From Thermoplasmata archaeon (GTDB taxonomy: Archaea > Thermoplasmatota > Thermoplasmata > Thermoplasmatales > Thermoplasmataceae), in assembly GCA_021797735.1 (NCBI GenBank), contig JAJZZE010000039.1, positions 1 to 59,293 of the forward strand: a stretch of 59,293 bases of DNA. The letters are read 5' to 3'. A program made the position numbers and the translations under genes. Below the pieces are notes generated by a model. That model was not told the origin of the DNA, did no database searches, and was given only the letters and a program-made list of their open reading frames with translations. Of the stretch, positions 44,974 to 54,116 are shown piece by piece (the stretch's first letter is position 1; each line of letters begins with the position of its first letter).

Positions 44974-46455
44974 ATGAAAAATTATATAAATGGGGAGTGG
45001 AAGGATTCTTCAAATAAGGAGGTTTTAAACAAATATAACCCAAGCACGGGCGAGCTGATAGATACTTTTCCTGCAGCAACAAAAACAGATGTTGATGATG
45101 CAATGGATTCTTCTGAGGATGCTTTTGATTCATGGAGTTCACTTGGTACACAGGCGAGGGCTAAAATATTATATAGTGCATATCATCTAATAGAGGAAAA
45201 AAGGGGTGAACTGGAGAATTTATTGACTATTGAGGCTGGAAAAATAAAAAGAGAGGCAAAGGATGAGGTTGATGGTGTTTTAGACCAGTTGCAATATTAT
45301 GCAGAATTCGAGAGAAAATTAACCGGAGATATAGTTGAGGGCTCAAATTCAAAAAGGAAAATATTTCAGTATAAGGTTCCATACGGTACTGTAGTTGCAA
45401 TAACACCGTGGAATTTTCCTGCAGCGATGGTAATAAGAAAACTGGCTCCGGCACTGTTAACAGGAAATACCGTCATATTAAAACCAAGTTCAGATACCCC
45501 TTTAATGGCGCAGTGGATCGTAAACAAATTTATAGAAGCAGGAATACCTAAGGGTGTTTTAAATCTTATTACCGGCAGAGGATCGGAAATAGGTGATTAT
45601 ATTGTTAACCATAAAAAGGTTTCACTGGTAACAATGACAGGGTCAACACCTACAGGCCAGAGGATAATGCAGAATGCATCAAACAATATGGCAAAACTTA
45701 TTCTTGAACTGGGCGGAAAAGCCCCGTTTATGGTATGGAAAGATGCAGATATAGAGAGAACATTAAAATCTCTTGTATGGGCAAAATATCTTAATGTTGG
45801 CCAATCCTGCATAGCCGCAGAGAGACTGTATATACATGAGGACATATACGATGATTTTATGAAAAAATTTGTTAATGTAACAAAAAGATTAACGGTTGGA
45901 AATCCCGAAACGTCCGATATAGGGCCATTAATAAATGGTGGTGCACTGGGCAGCATGGAAGATGTTGTAAAAAATGCAAGGGAAAGTGGATATAAAATAG
46001 TTACGGGCGGGAATAGGCCTTCCTTAGAGGGAAACTATAAAAATGGATATTTCTTTGAACCGACGATAATAGAGGATGTAAACCAGGATTCCCCATTATT
46101 CCAGACAGAAATATTCGGCCCGATAATAGGAACGGAAAAGGTGTCGGATATAGATGAATTATATAAAAAAGCAAATGATTCAAGATATGGTTTAGCATCA
46201 TATTTATTTACAGAGGATCCTGAATTAATGTTCGATGCAGCTGAAAAAATAAAGTTCGGTGAACTGTACATAAATATGCCCGGACCGGAAGCCTCACAGG
46301 GATATCATACTGGTTTCAGGCTTACTGGCCAGGGAGGGGAAGGAAGTATTTATGGAATAAATGAATATTTAAAGGTTAAAAATGTTTACGTTGATTATTC
46401 AAAAAAGCCTCTGAATATAAACACAATAAATAACGATGTTTTTAATAATTTATAA
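44974..46455 (+). CDS. gadh: D-glyceraldehyde dehydrogenase (NADP+), ALDH superfamily
   Basis: The enzyme oxidises D-glyceraldehyde to glycerate in the non-phosphorylating Entner-Doudoroff pathway of Thermoplasmatales. The 493-residue protein has catalytic Glu at about 245 (LELGGKAPFMVWKDAD) and Cys at about 279 (NVGQSCIAAERLY), with TGSTPTGQRIM for cofactor binding. Its C-terminus (YINMPGPEASQGYHTGFR, then EYLKVKNVYVDYS) and whole layout match the Thermoplasma acidophilum glyceraldehyde dehydrogenase I remember, more than general succinate-semialdehyde dehydrogenases. The identification is by recall, not by search. Single gene with a TATA-like region near 44945. Confidence 0.87.
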   Translation: MKNYINGEWKDSSNKEVLNKYNPSTGELIDTFPAATKTDVDDAMDSSEDAFDSWSSLGTQARAKILYSAYHLIEEKRGELENLLTIEAGKIKREAKDEVDGVLDQLQYYAEFERKLTGDIVEGSNSKRKIFQYKVPYGTVVAITPWNFPAAMVIRKLAPALLTGNTVILKPSSDTPLMAQWIVNKFIEAGIPKGVLNLITGRGSEIGDYIVNHKKVSLVTMTGSTPTGQRIMQNASNNMAKLILELGGKAPFMVWKDADIERTLKSLVWAKYLNVGQSCIAAERLYIHEDIYDDFMKKFVNVTKRLTVGNPETSDIGPLINGGALGSMEDVVKNARESGYKIVTGGNRPSLEGNYKNGYFFEPTIIEDVNQDSPLFQTEIFGPIIGTEKVSDIDELYKKANDSRYGLASYLFTEDPELMFDAAEKIKFGELYINMPGPEASQGYHTGFRLTGQGGEGSIYGINEYLKVKNVYVDYSKKPLNINTINNDVFNNL

Positions 46456-46460
46456 ATAAA

Positions 46461-47150
46461 TTAATTTTTTATTATTTCACCGTGGAACGGGATTATCATT
46501 TTACTTTTTATGTTTATTAATTTGTTGAATGACTTTACCGCCTCGGCATAGTCATCGCAGAAAAACATAAACGGTGGCCTTATTCCATTAGTATTGTTTA
46601 TAGCATCACCTGCAATTAATATATTATCATATAGAATTGAAATGTGGCCTTTAGTGTGCCCCGGAGAGTTTATTACCCGGATATTATCAAATTTTTCCTC
46701 TGTTTTTAAATATATATCCGCATTTATTTTTCCCCTTCTAATATTATCTATTCTAACTGTAGTTTTATAAAAATCCTCTTTATTTACATTTATAGTTGAT
46801 TTTACATCATCATAATTTATGTTAAATAAACCCTCGTTTAACAGCTTTTCCTTCTCGTTTTCGCTTGCTATTACCTTTGCCTTTGATATTTCCTTTATGG
46901 CATTAACGTTGCCGGTATGATCCGGATGATAGTGCGTTATAAATATATATGATACATCATTTATACTGTATTTTATTTTATTTAAAAAATTTGAGATAAT
47001 TTCAATATTGCCCGGGAGCCCTGTATCAATCATAACCAGACCGTTTTTATATCCGTTTTCTATAAATGTAATATTATGGTTCAGGACCGTACCGAAGAAC
47101 TCGGGTTCCAGCATTTCCAGAACATGAACATTACTGTATACTGTTACCAT
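46461..47150 (-). CDS. Metallo-beta-lactamase fold hydrolase (glyoxalase II-like)
   Basis: This 229-residue protein has the MBL motif THYHPDHTGN near residues 65-74, then NSPGHTKGH near 164-172, a bridging ILIAGDAINNT, and a final PFHGE, the set of zinc ligands of glyoxalase II-like and other B3/quorum-quenching type hydrolases. A longer frame begins at a TTG (47168); ATG 47150 is the better start. It overlaps the end of the upstream U32-like gene by 20 bases, so the two are probably coupled. The substrate is unknown. Confidence 0.82.
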   Translation of the reverse strand: MVTVYSNVHVLEMLEPEFFGTVLNHNITFIENGYKNGLVMIDTGLPGNIEIISNFLNKIKYSINDVSYIFITHYHPDHTGNVNAIKEISKAKVIASENEKEKLLNEGLFNINYDDVKSTINVNKEDFYKTTVRIDNIRRGKINADIYLKTEEKFDNIRVINSPGHTKGHISILYDNILIAGDAINNTNGIRPPFMFFCDDYAEAVKSFNKLINIKSKMIIPFHGEIIKN

Positions 47151-48270
47151 CTTTAAACGCCTGTACAAGATTCACCGGTATATCCATGCTTTTATTTTCA
47201 CGGTTAATAATATTTTTACTGTTTATTGACATGGTTTGTGCCGCTATTTTATCGCAGTAACCGCAGGATTCACAGCTCATTGAGTTACAATCATTATGTT
47301 TAAAGAAATTTAACCATTTTTCCGGAAATTTTGTGTTATCTATGTATACCTCTCTTAATTCCCTATAATTCTCTGGGCCACTTATTTTTTCCATTGCTTT
47401 AGGTACTGCATTACCCTGCGGATAACTTAAAATATCCAGTAAATTCCCATTATAACTTCTATCAGAATATGCCTTTATAGACCTTAATATCCAGTTTGTA
47501 TTTTTGGTCCTGGAAGCAAGTTTAAAACGGTCTATGCCTATATCTTCATAGAGTTTTGTATCTTCTGGCCTGATCCATCTCATCTTTATAATATTTTTTG
47601 GATCATTATACACATCTGTTGCACAGAATAATAACGGGTATTCAAACCAGAATTTTTTATCATCAGTCTTCGATGAGAGGGACGATACAACATCATGTGT
47701 TCTCCTGTAAGGGCATCCAAATAAACATGAATTATCCGTTATTACTTCCATATCCATATCATTGTCCCTCACATAGTTATTTGCTTTCTCCAGGAATTTA
47801 AAATCCCTTGATGTGTCCTCATTCAGTATAATAGTATTTACTCCCAGGTTCCTGTATTCCTCTATTTCCCTCATTGTTGATATTCTTGCAAATGAAGAGG
47901 CGGATATTTCAAGATCCGGGTATTCATTTCTTATTTTGCCTATCAAAAATGGCAGTGCAACTATAAAACCATCAACACCATATGATACAAGTTTTTCTAT
48001 TTCATTTTCTATATTTCTATTGAATTCTGGGGAGTACTCATTCCCATTCAGTACAGCACTGTTCATCACATATAAAAATTTCATATTGTTTCTGTGTATC
48101 AGATCTATGTGATCTTTAAAATGGTTTTCGTCTATATCCGGTAATATAAACGATGCCCTGCCATGGCCTGTTATTGTTTTTTTAAAACTTCCAAATAAAT
48201 ATTTTACAGGATATTTGTTAATCCCCCTTATAAGATTATCGTCAAAATTCGTTCCAATTACCAGTCTCAT
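47131..48270 (-). CDS. Peptidase U32-family protein with Fe-S cysteines
   Basis: This 379-residue protein belongs to the U32 collagenase-like group, which includes UbiU/UbiV and RlhA that act as Fe-S-dependent hydroxylases of RNA or ubiquinone precursors. It has a TIM-barrel-like order of strands with ISASSFARISTMREIEEYRNLGVNTIILNEDTSRD, the Cys motif DNSCLFGCPYRRTHD near 200 (two Cys), and a C-terminal Cys cluster SCESCGYCDK near 342-351, together enough for a 4Fe-4S centre. Its role in archaea is unknown. It shares an overlap with the MBL gene and is divergent from the peptide/radical SAM unit. Confidence 0.8.
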   Translation of the reverse strand: MRLVIGTNFDDNLIRGINKYPVKYLFGSFKKTITGHGRASFILPDIDENHFKDHIDLIHRNNMKFLYVMNSAVLNGNEYSPEFNRNIENEIEKLVSYGVDGFIVALPFLIGKIRNEYPDLEISASSFARISTMREIEEYRNLGVNTIILNEDTSRDFKFLEKANNYVRDNDMDMEVITDNSCLFGCPYRRTHDVVSSLSSKTDDKKFWFEYPLLFCATDVYNDPKNIIKMRWIRPEDTKLYEDIGIDRFKLASRTKNTNWILRSIKAYSDRSYNGNLLDILSYPQGNAVPKAMEKISGPENYRELREVYIDNTKFPEKWLNFFKHNDCNSMSCESCGYCDKIAAQTMSINSKNIINRENKSMDIPVNLVQAFKDGNSIQ

Positions 48271-48377
48271 AAGTTAATGAGTGACCTGAATTATTTTATT
48301 ATTTTCTTTTTTATGTATATATTCGGCAAATTAAAAATGTGTAAATAAAATTTCAATATGGCCGATTGTGATATGAT

Positions 48378-48458
48378 ATGGAGACAACTGAAGTAAAACT
48401 ACTGAAACTGGATAGAAAGCTATGTAGGTGTGGTTATTCACCGAGCTGGGGTAATTAA
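48378..48458 (+). CDS. Candidate 26-residue peptide precursor for the adjacent radical SAM enzyme
   Basis: An ATG at 48378, five bases after GTGAT, opens a 26-codon frame whose TAA shares its last base with the ATG of the radical SAM gene (TAATG), so the two are translationally coupled. The product has a short charged N-terminal part (METTEVKLLKLDRK) resembling a leader and a C-terminal core LCRCGYSPSWGN with two Cys and two aromatic residues. A small peptide directly before a SPASM radical SAM gene is the pattern of sactipeptide, ranthipeptide, streptide, mycofactocin and cyclophane systems. It is too short for standard gene callers. I know of no described homolog. Confidence 0.6.
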   Translation: METTEVKLLKLDRKLCRCGYSPSWGN

Positions 48459-49684
48459 TGCCCCAGAAATTTTTTTCAAATTATAATGTATTTATTAAGG
48501 ATAGGGACGATTATATATTATTTAATACACTGACAGGATATGCATTGAGATTATCATATGATGAAAAATCTATGATAGAGGATGGAAACATACCGGAAGA
48601 TATTGAGGATGCATTCAGTGAGGGCTTTATAACGGGCGATGTAAATAAAATTTTTAATGATTTAACCATGGAAAAAAATATTTTTGAACCAACACTATTA
48701 TTAACATATAACTGTAATTTTGATTGCTCATACTGTTTTCAGAAGGATTATAGAAAAAGAATTTATGTAAATGATGATGTTATTGACGGCTTTATCAATT
48801 ATATAAATAAGAATAACAATGGAATGAAAACAAGGGTGACGTTTTTTGGTGGTGAACCGTTATTAAACATAAAAGATATAAAAAGAATATCTGAAAGATT
48901 AAAGAATATAGAATATGAATTCAGTATTGTTACAAATGGGTCCCTACTGACCGAGAATGTAGCAGATGAACTGTATAATTATGGCTTAAGGTATGTTCAG
49001 ATCACACTGGATGGACCTGAGGAAGTACATAATAAAAGAAGGTATTTTGATAACGGAAGGGGTTCATTTAACATTATAATGAAAAATTTAAAATATGCAC
49101 AGAATAAGTTTAATGTTGTATTGAGAATTAATATAGATTATTCAAATGAAAACGAAATAGATGAACTGCTAGAAAATTTAAAATTAAATGGAATAAATAA
49201 TGTAAGAATAGATCCACACATGGTACATGAAAACCTTTTTAGAAATGAAGCATGGGATGAAAATATACCGAGGAAAAATGAATACATAGAAATAAAAAGG
49301 ATATGGAATAAAATTAAAGAGCATGGATTTAAAATACCGGGTGATGCTTTCAGGCTGGGAATATGCGTTGCACATATAGATAGGGATATCATAGCTGACC
49401 CATATGGAAATATATATCCATGCTGGGCATTTACGGGTGATGAAAAATATATAAAGGGCAAGTTGAATAAAAACGGTGATATAACCCTAATAAATAAGGA
49501 TCTAACAGCGGATAAAGCAGCAATGGCATGGAAAAATGATGAGTGCATAAACTGCCCGTATCTGCCAATGTGCTTTGGTGGGTGTAGATTTTTCTCAGTT
49601 TTAAATGGAAATTCATTTTCGGGTAAGGAATGCAGGAAAGACTCCTTCAGGGAAACACTGGAATTTATAAAGGAATTCATTTAA
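48458..49684 (+). CDS. Radical SAM/SPASM peptide-modifying enzyme candidate
   Basis: This 408-residue enzyme has the radical SAM cluster motif CxxxCxxC (Cys86, Cys90, Cys93 in YNCNFDCSYCFQ), GGEPLLN near 131-137 for SAM binding, and a C-terminal SPASM domain with extra Cys residues around YPCWAF, CINCPYLPMCFGGC and the final KECRKD for auxiliary 4Fe-4S clusters. The N-terminal segment (1-75: YNVFIKDRDDYILFNTLTG) is the usual cap of SPASM peptide maturases. Enzymes of this type form thioether, C-C or cyclophane links in ribosomal peptides or mature sulfatases; no sulfatase is near. The TAATG overlap with the peptide gene at 48378 names the likely substrate. Confidence 0.85.
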   Translation: MPQKFFSNYNVFIKDRDDYILFNTLTGYALRLSYDEKSMIEDGNIPEDIEDAFSEGFITGDVNKIFNDLTMEKNIFEPTLLLTYNCNFDCSYCFQKDYRKRIYVNDDVIDGFINYINKNNNGMKTRVTFFGGEPLLNIKDIKRISERLKNIEYEFSIVTNGSLLTENVADELYNYGLRYVQITLDGPEEVHNKRRYFDNGRGSFNIIMKNLKYAQNKFNVVLRINIDYSNENEIDELLENLKLNGINNVRIDPHMVHENLFRNEAWDENIPRKNEYIEIKRIWNKIKEHGFKIPGDAFRLGICVAHIDRDIIADPYGNIYPCWAFTGDEKYIKGKLNKNGDITLINKDLTADKAAMAWKNDECINCPYLPMCFGGCRFFSVLNGNSFSGKECRKDSFRETLEFIKEFI

Positions 49685-49686
49685 AT

Positions 49687-51357
49687 TTATAAAAATGTAA
49701 TAATCCCTGTATCAGAATCTATACTTATTTTATCACCTGTTTTTATATTCTCCAGTATTTCTGTATTATAAACAATAGTCTTATTTTTATCAATAAAATT
49801 ATCTATAATTCTATTTGTTACACTGGATTTGATTATAATAGCATCGTACCCCGAATAATCAAAATTTTTATCGTATTTATCAGTAATTATTATGTTTCCA
49901 TTGCCCGGCACATTAATATCAACATTTCCGCCGACGCTTTTACCTATTGAATAGCCTCTGCCAGCGAATTTTCCTATAGTTATAACCCTTATATCATTTG
50001 TACCACCGGCATATAGGGATGGGAAGCCTGAAACAAGTATTGTTTTCTGTCCTGATTTGAGGAAATTTAATGAGGACAGTTCATTGATTAAATCGTATAT
50101 ATTGTTCAGAAATTTTTCTGGAATATTTACCGGTATTACTCCCTTTAAAAGATTAATAGACTTTGATAACCAGTCAGATGCCACAATTGCATATATATCA
50201 GCATTTGGCCTTATTGCAGATATGATTCTTGCAGTATAACCGGATTTTGTAAATGCTACTATTGAATCAACATTGATACTTTCTGCCATTATTCTTACAC
50301 CCCGTGCAACAGAAAATGCAATTTTATCCATTATAAAATTTTCAGGTTCAGAAAATTTAACATTCTGTGTTTCCACAAAATTTGATATATCATTTAAATA
50401 GGAAACTGCACTTACAGGATATTTGCCTACTGCGGTTTCCTCAGATAACATCAGGGCATCTGTGTCATCTATTATTGCATTCGTTACATCGGCTACCTCT
50501 GCTCTTGTGGGGGAATCCGAATTCACCATGGATTCCAGCATCTGCGTTGCAACTATGGTTGGAACTGCATATTTATGTGCTATCATTATTATTTTTTTCT
50601 GTGCCATTACGACTTCCTTTAATGGTAATTCAACACCAAGGTCTCCTCTTGCCACCATTATATAATCTGAGGCCTGAACTATTGATTCTATATTGTCATA
50701 ACCGCTTTTTGTTTCTATTTTGCTTATTATTTCACCATTTCCCTTTTTATCATATATATAATCCTGTAATTCATTTACATTTTCAGCCTTTTGAACAAAG
50801 GATAATGCGTAAAAATTGACGTGGTTTTTTAATCCCTCATCCAGAAATAATTTATCACGGTCTGTCAGTGTACCAAGTTCTATATATTTGCCCGGTATAT
50901 TTACCCTTGAAGTATTATGAATTTCTCCACTGTCCAGGGCTGTTGTTTCAATAGTATTGCCTATCTTATCTACCTTAAATTTTATTTTGCCATCGTTTAT
51001 TGCTATAATGGTTTTATCATCTATGTACTCCCTGATTTTATGATTTATAAGGATGTCGGATTTTAAATTGCTGTCATCAGATATTGTGTACTTATTTCCG
51101 GATATAACATTAAGAATATTATTATTGAAAATTCCTGTTCTTAACTCCGGACCCTTCAGGTCTACCATTATACCTATATTTGTTTTGCAATCCCTGTTTA
51201 TTTTATCAAGCATGTTTGATACCCTGGTTATATATCCGGGCTCTATATGTGCGGTATTTATTCTTATCGCGGATAAGCCCAGATGTGCCATTTTATTTAA
51301 TATTGTTTCATCAAAGCTTGCTGGACCTATTGTTGCAATTATTTTGGTTTTAGACAT
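49687..51357 (-). CDS. pyk: Pyruvate kinase with extra C-terminal domain
   Basis: The enzyme makes pyruvate and ATP from phosphoenolpyruvate. The protein has 556 residues: the barrel with KTKIIATIGPAS (1-12), MVDLKGPELRTG near 65-76, the metal/substrate motif IETKSGYDNI (Lys/Glu) near 219-228, VARGDLGVELP near 239-249 and NSDSPTRAEVADV near 278-290, then the C-terminal lid domain. The last about 90 residues (from about 465) add a beta-rich segment (GGNVDINVPGNG... KTIVYNTEILENIKTGDKISIDSD) like the PEP-utiliser-type extra domain of Bacillus and Geobacillus pyruvate kinase. It ends three bases after the convergent radical SAM gene. Confidence 0.95.
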   Translation of the reverse strand: MSKTKIIATIGPASFDETILNKMAHLGLSAIRINTAHIEPGYITRVSNMLDKINRDCKTNIGIMVDLKGPELRTGIFNNNILNVISGNKYTISDDSNLKSDILINHKIREYIDDKTIIAINDGKIKFKVDKIGNTIETTALDSGEIHNTSRVNIPGKYIELGTLTDRDKLFLDEGLKNHVNFYALSFVQKAENVNELQDYIYDKKGNGEIISKIETKSGYDNIESIVQASDYIMVARGDLGVELPLKEVVMAQKKIIMIAHKYAVPTIVATQMLESMVNSDSPTRAEVADVTNAIIDDTDALMLSEETAVGKYPVSAVSYLNDISNFVETQNVKFSEPENFIMDKIAFSVARGVRIMAESINVDSIVAFTKSGYTARIISAIRPNADIYAIVASDWLSKSINLLKGVIPVNIPEKFLNNIYDLINELSSLNFLKSGQKTILVSGFPSLYAGGTNDIRVITIGKFAGRGYSIGKSVGGNVDINVPGNGNIIITDKYDKNFDYSGYDAIIIKSSVTNRIIDNFIDKNKTIVYNTEILENIKTGDKISIDSDTGIITFL

Positions 51358-53414: not shown

Positions 53415-54116
53415 ATGGTAAACAGGAAAATATTGGTATTGATGATTGTACCGATATTAATAGCCCTAAGCGGCTCTTTTGCTTTCTCTGCTTTTTCAGG
53501 GACAACTCCCACCGATATAAATACATCTGCAGGAACGTTTTGTTTCTCACAAAACCTGAGCTATGTTGCAACGAATGCAAATAATACACCCGTTATGGTG
53601 TGTGGTGGAGGGCACCAGTATACAATTACAACTATTGGAACTGAGAACATTTGGAACGGCATCCGTGCAACCTGTTACATAGGTCCTTATGGCCTTGGAA
53701 CAGAAACTTCCTCTTCCGGTTTATTAGTACAAACGGTAAATGTAGGCAATATGGCACCTGGAGATATTGTAGTTATAAAACTTACCGTTACTAACACGGG
53801 AACGGTTGGAGAGACTGTTACACCCACAATATCATCAACATCGACATTGCCTGTGTACAACTGTTCCTTTGATCCACTGATTTACCCGGCTCCTGCTTCA
53901 GCACCCCCATATCCCTGGGGTGCTATGCTGGACAATACACTTGTATTCAATGCATTTAACCCAACCACCGGTGCTCCCTGTGGACCGGTAACAGTGGCAC
54001 CAGGTGGATCAGTATCATGGGATGTTGCCATTGGCCTTGGTATAAATGCAGGGAACAGTTTCCAGGATGTTGCCCTACCTTTAACAATAACAACTACAGT
54101 CATATCTGTTCCATAA
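53415..54116 (+). CDS. Secreted TasA/SipW-substrate-like surface protein
   Basis: This 233-residue protein starts with a signal peptide (VNRKILVLMIVPILIALSGS) followed by FAFSAFSGTTPTDINT, and has no other membrane span. The rest is Gly/Thr/Ser/Pro-rich and beta-like, with VVIKLTVTNTGTVGETVTPTIS, a DUF11-like or CARDB-like beta repeat, and five Cys residues. The AFS-F-S start after the signal resembles TasA/camelysin proteins, and archaeal bundling pili are built from TasA-like subunits. The gene is visibly richer in G+C than its neighbours, which suggests high expression or transfer. No peptidase or partner gene is next to it. Confidence 0.6.
   Translation: MVNRKILVLMIVPILIALSGSFAFSAFSGTTPTDINTSAGTFCFSQNLSYVATNANNTPVMVCGGGHQYTITTIGTENIWNGIRATCYIGPYGLGTETSSSGLLVQTVNVGNMAPGDIVVIKLTVTNTGTVGETVTPTISSTSTLPVYNCSFDPLIYPAPASAPPYPWGAMLDNTLVFNAFNPTTGAPCGPVTVAPGGSVSWDVAIGLGINAGNSFQDVALPLTITTTVISVP

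Follow-up and report, generated by a model that had tools for sequence, protein, structure and literature searches.

The systems that come closest to the locus described here pair a short precursor peptide with a radical SAM/SPASM maturase. The CefB (NF038107) and geopeptide (TIGR04280) maturases act on short precursors with a Cys-every-fifth pattern, and CteB, a thioether-forming radical SAM/SPASM enzyme with an RRE, is a maturase of SCIFF ranthipeptides, whose precursor holds six Cys. PQQ and mycofactocin are made from a small invariant precursor by a radical SAM/SPASM maturase with an RRE, in the case of PQQ alongside an MBL-fold protein. RRE-Finder counts ranthipeptides as one of the RRE-dependent classes whose RREs are fused (PMC7470986). 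A separate body of work concerns U32 proteins: TrhP and RlhA require prephenate for hydroxylation, TrhP needing E162, C170 and C177 (PMC6599085), and UbiU-UbiV, which bind 4Fe-4S clusters, hydroxylate without O2 in ubiquinone synthesis (PMC6747719). The substrates of these proteins are RNA or quinone precursors, and we found no report of a U32 hydroxylase that acts on a peptide.

The window analysed here, the whole stretch of 59,293 nucleotides of contig JAJZZE010000039.1 from a Thermoplasmata archaeon, holds four neighbouring genes that encode a 26-residue peptide, a radical SAM/SPASM enzyme, a U32 protein and an MBL-fold hydrolase (Table 1). We consider it likely that these four genes, U32 and MBL included, form a RiPP precursor-maturase cassette outside the curated families, because an invariant core stands beside the enzyme in all four carriers, the genes are linked as a block, peptide maturases and CteB are the enzyme's nearest matches, its SPASM domain is complete and the U32 residues are conserved. 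No curated model covering the precursor or the enzyme was found. Open-licence papers yielded neither a cassette of this kind nor any pairing of U32 proteins with RiPP maturation, which is weak evidence of absence.

Table 1. Features of the four-gene locus, with positions in the window.
Feature	Position	Strand	Basis
Four-gene cassette, present or absent as one block	46456..49686	.	Flanking genes adjacent in 7 block-less genomes of the genus; second, unrelated empty site in Acidiplasma
MBL-fold metallo-hydrolase, complete dinuclear metal site, exact start codon uncertain	46461..47168	-	Pfam Lactamase_B 91 bits; same distribution as enzyme
U32-family Fe-S protein, candidate O2-independent hydroxylase	47131..48270	-	Pfam Peptidase_U32 44.3 bits (cut-off 22.4); same distribution as enzyme within family
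Divergent intergenic region, 107 nt	48271..48377	.	Sequence; GTGAT at 48368-48372, 5 nt 5' of peptide start codon
Putative precursor peptide, 26 residues, METTEVKLLKLDRKL-CRCGYSPSWGN	48378..48458, stop included	+	Conserved in four genomes; core pattern in carriers only
Hairpin CTGGGG-loop-CCCCAG then T7, across peptide stop and enzyme start	48446..48476	+	Terminator-like scan match
Radical SAM/SPASM peptide maturase (predicted), 408 aa, RRE-like N-terminal domain (about residues 10-71)	48458..49684	+	Pfam Radical_SAM 83.5 bits; NCBIfam peptide maturases best, below cut-offs; fold closest to CteB

The peptide frame, which translates as METTEVKLLKLDRKLCRCGYSPSWGN followed by a stop, has 26 codons, and its TAA (48456-48458) shares one base with the enzyme's ATG at 48458. 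An earlier note on this DNA had proposed a 26-codon frame coupled to a radical SAM/SPASM gene, and its coordinates, the one-base overlap and all of the radical SAM and SPASM cysteines are confirmed. In the window, in the carrier genome G004 and in Acidiplasma an in-frame stop lies a few codons 5' of the peptide, so its start is well bounded. The GTGAT ahead of the start codon could serve as its ribosome-binding (Shine-Dalgarno) site, and the divergent intergenic region would be a shared promoter region. A peptide occupies the same place in 4/4 enzyme-carrying genomes, with the sequences MEVTEVKLLKLDRKLCRCGYSPSWGN, MKTTTEVKIVKLDRKLCRCGYSPSWGN and METIERKVLKVERKACRCGYSPSWGN directly 5' of the enzyme in the other three (two sister genomes and Acidiplasma aeolicum). 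The core CRCGYSPSWGN is identical in all four, including the two Cys, the Tyr and the Trp whose conservation the earlier note had proposed to check. Between the window and Acidiplasma, all seven differences in core codons 16-26 are synonymous (Fisher p = 2.3e-7) and the first 15 residues are variable (pN 0.23); a variable leader with a fixed core is the pattern expected of a precursor. When the core was back-translated into a degenerate DNA pattern, it matched the four enzyme carriers and no other of the order's 117 genomes, while the reversed control gave no match; viral contigs gave no match to the core pattern either. The peptide is thus a real gene under protein-level purifying selection, as it is present in all four carriers, its core changes are synonymous only and its core pattern is limited to carriers. 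These results support the RiPP-type reading put forward in the earlier note, and none of the outcomes that it had named as refuting arose: related enzyme genes keep the upstream peptide, its codons are under strong purifying selection, and the best scores of the enzyme are with peptide maturases. The note knew of no such peptide in Thermoplasmatales; it is not unique to the window's genome, being found in Acidiplasma aeolicum as well.

The junction hairpin forms in 4/4 carrier genomes, with the stop and start codons in or beside its loop, and it could couple translation or yield extra peptide message. Its nucleotide conservation is not significant beyond codon constraint, given that the enzyme's shared degenerate codons are identical in 58% anyway, and may be explained by coding constraint alone. 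A hairpin followed by T7 across the peptide stop and enzyme start in four genomes would also suit a regulatory leader, in which case the hairpin would let translation of the peptide control the radical SAM gene and the peptide would not be a substrate. We find this very improbable. Residues C16-P22 are kept while six of the seven codons change synonymously (codons 16-22, window against Acidiplasma: six synonymous, no nonsynonymous), the peptide is without a run of a sensed amino acid, and the enzyme's relatives are peptide maturases.

That enzyme carries the radical SAM motif CxxxCxxC at C86/C90/C93 and a complete SPASM pattern of seven Cys, C303-x13-G-x4-C322 ... C363-x2-C366-x5-C372-x3-C376-x15-C392, and the cysteines of both are invariant even in relatives of 25-30% identity. 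Its homologues are 95% and 84% identical in two genomes of the same genus and 66% identical in Acidiplasma aeolicum VT. Among NCBIfam models it ranks first with CefB (236 bits, cut-off 600) and the geopeptide maturase (233, cut-off 400), followed by TIGR04463, Clo7bot and PapB, and it stays below the cut-offs of the ranthipeptide families, which further include PapB (150/340) and SCIFF (87.5/425). For the Acidiplasma copy the geopeptide model comes first at 252/400 bits, ahead of CefB at 220/600. Sulfatase maturases, a grouping with which would have refuted the earlier note's idea, score far lower than these peptide maturases (anaerobic sulfatase maturase model, 78.8 bits against a cut-off of 349). 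The enzyme therefore lies outside every curated family, and its bond type is not readable from family membership. A defence-system reading was also tried and rejected, as the only matches were weak ones to viperin through the common radical SAM fold, 69 bits at best. Plasmids, among the matches listed, held only remote maturases of less than 30% identity.

The likeness to CefB and geopeptide maturases extends over the full length, N-terminal domain included (profile positions 3-418 of 444 and 17-419 of 428), as well as to the radical SAM and SPASM cysteines and the short precursor. It ends at the core, which has only CxC and no Cys-every-fifth pattern, and at the U32 and MBL partners. The closest solved structure is that of CteB (PDB 5wgg; profile E 6e-21, fold E 5e-14), from which the enzyme differs in being only 18% identical, just as the two Cys of the peptide differ from the six of SCIFF. 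In the structural model (mean pLDDT 70) residues 10-71 form three strands and then three helices (bbb-aaa), with modest confidence in that part, and the CefB and TIGR04463 profiles match the N-terminal part as well. We take this region, with modest confidence, to have the layout of an RRE. One carrier, G004, has an in-frame TGA at codon 283 of the enzyme, where the other three genomes have TGG (Trp283; L034/L005), with its peptide, U32 and MBL genes intact. This copy may have been inactivated recently, or the TGA may be an assembly error.

As to the chemistry, we propose that the 26-residue peptide would act as precursor, with its charged N-terminal part bound by the predicted RRE-like domain, and that the enzyme would install one or two crosslinks in the CRCGYSPSWGN core. 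The likeliest crosslink would be a ranthipeptide-like thioether in which Cys16, Cys18 or both are joined to a residue further along the chain, and for thioether chemistry as such we regard the case as evenly balanced. W-x-N is a known cyclophane-type motif, named as such by the earlier note too. The core holds W-x-N, and Y20 and W24 are both invariant, so the enzyme might instead make a C-C or ether crosslink between side chains (Tyr to Trp, or a three-residue cyclophane formed at Y20-S21-P22 or at W24-G25-N26) and leave the Cys for another use such as metal binding. This we think unlikely, given that the two Cys of the core are invariant too and that the cyclophane maturase models score far below CefB and geopeptide, at 69 bits for YhhB (cut-off 445) and 60 for GrrM (cut-off 310), which places the enzyme in neither family.

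Whether the two neighbours on the other strand belong with the peptide had been left open by the earlier note, and the distribution of the genes now settles that they do. U32 and MBL are divergent from the peptide and overlap each other. Among 61 relatives, the three genomes that have the enzyme are also the ones that have U32 (at E up to 1e-10) and the ones that have MBL (at E up to 1e-30); the enzyme itself is found in 4/77 genomes of the family. One genome from the phylum sample (G270) has a locus identical to that of Acidiplasma aeolicum, with enzyme and U32 both present. In the window the block is bounded by an aldehyde dehydrogenase gene ending at 46455 and a pyruvate kinase gene ending at 49687. 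Seven other genomes of the genus are without the block, and there these two genes are adjacent; at one such empty site (L062) they end 2 bases apart. In Acidiplasma aeolicum, whose genus belongs to the same family as the window's, U32 and MBL again lie beside peptide and enzyme, and the other flanking genes differ from those of the window: the block is flanked by one phosphodiesterase-like and one ArsR-like gene, and two further Acidiplasma genomes of the same GTDB genus have these two genes adjacent and no block. With empty sites at two unrelated places, the four genes come and go as a unit; U32 and MBL belong with peptide and enzyme and are gained or lost with them as one block. The cassette proteins are 60-67% identical between the genera and pyruvate kinase is 65% identical, so transfer and loss with relocation both fit. 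These counts refer to four carriers only, three of them closely related, and to genome collections that are samples of species.

Bacteriocin-type clusters often have a patchy spread, as here with 4/77 genomes of the family, and are often gained or lost whole, and it could be asked whether the modified peptide is secreted, as an antimicrobial or as a signal. We judge this quite improbable, as the block has no transporter, immunity or signal-like gene and the core is invariant between genera, unlike most antimicrobials. An invariant core, a single copy and a block free of transporter or immunity genes suggest instead a product that is intracellular, cofactor-like or metal-binding, rather than an antibiotic.

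Within the U32 protein, E175, C182, C186, C216, C328, C333, C336 and C339 are invariant in 11 relatives, and the best fold match of its model (pLDDT 81) is the U32 protein Mk0906. It resembles TrhP, RlhA and UbiU/UbiV in having a U32 domain, a conserved Glu and Cys, and relatives with a chorismate mutase alongside, and differs from them in its Cys spacing, C182-x3-C186-x29-C216 with a C-terminal Cx4Cx2Cx2C. Those relatives, of 35-39% identity, come from 18 genomes that belong to another family of the class, and for that family the same phylum sample gave no match to the radical SAM enzyme at the threshold applied. They would thus act on another substrate, and the U32 of the cassette might likewise serve a step that does not involve the peptide. 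Several of them are adjoined by a divergent chorismate mutase (CM_2) gene, confirmed by Pfam in L050, L052 and L055 (family f7), and L056 of the same family shows a similar arrangement by eye. The product of chorismate mutase is prephenate. The U32-CM_2 neighbours of f7 offer a starting point for the study of prephenate-linked U32 chemistry beyond RiPPs in archaea. Plasmids gave no match to U32.

By analogy with the known U32 hydroxylases, U32 would then, after the crosslinking step, probably hydroxylate the aromatic ring of Tyr20 or of Trp24 in a reaction that uses prephenate and no O2. That it acts on the peptide at all is plausible, and in our view a shade below an even call. The MBL-fold protein, in which H79, H81, D83, H84, H171, D188 and H229 of the metal site are invariant in four genomes, is a candidate leader or product hydrolase that would remove the leader or trim the product. 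No PqqB model was among its best NCBIfam matches. Set against PQQ and mycofactocin, the cassette is without a Glu-x3-Tyr or C-terminal Val-Tyr motif and without PqqB or MftD-F, and has U32 instead. The cassette does not fit PQQ biosynthesis as such: the core has no Glu. A PQQ-type beta-propeller partner was rejected, since proteins of this kind (PQQ_2) are uncorrelated with the cassette in co-occurrence.

Methanobactin is made from a precursor of about 30 residues with an 11-residue, Cys-containing core. A CxC in a short invariant core, acidophilic hosts, and in Acidiplasma a position next to genes for an ArsR-type regulator and an arsenite-permease-like protein might suggest that the product is a methanobactin-like peptide-derived metal ligand with which the hosts handle copper or iron in water that is acidic and rich in metals. 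The probability of this is low in our estimation: the ArsR neighbour is there without the block too and so merely marks the insertion site, the block has no transporter, and MbnB/MbnC, the methanobactin enzymes, are absent from it. Of the RiPP cassette that we favour, the gene pair, the selection on the peptide, the linkage of the four genes and the conserved catalytic residues are observed; which bonds are made, in what order the enzymes act, which residue is hydroxylated and what the product does are inferred. In its most specific form, a new acidophilic-archaeal RiPP class in which a radical SAM crosslink and a prephenate-dependent, O2-independent U32 ring hydroxylation on one invariant peptide lead to a peptide-derived cofactor, the proposal is tentative and rather more doubtful than probable. 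If it were true, the U32 protein of the cassette would be the first known hydroxylase of its family with a peptide as substrate. The cassette is compact enough to serve as an archaeal model of the reactions that a U32 hydroxylase can carry out on peptides. Clean gain and loss at two sites and a core fixed at 11 residues open the question to direct testing, with three enzymes and a single substrate of 26 residues to handle.

Some further observations concern other parts of the window and more distant enzymes. At 53415-54116 the window encodes a small secreted-looking protein with a hydrophobic N-terminal segment, in a stretch with a GC of 0.38-0.42 against about 0.30 around it. Upstream of L006, a more distant full-length homologue of the enzyme, there is no obvious peptide. 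A remote homologue in G145, of the same phylum, has a different candidate precursor, MAIEVIKITNTAFSTSKKPWPGAETEPVPHPCCYCYMVDLV (L043:1110-1232), upstream of its maturase (L043:1486-2814), which is TIGR04463/Clo7bot-like at 346 and 341 bits, below the cut-offs. Two more radical SAM genes in the window's genome encode proteins 25-27% identical to the enzyme; they lie at G000:C10:9256-10152 and G000:C56:13636-14550, the latter of which contains a TAG.
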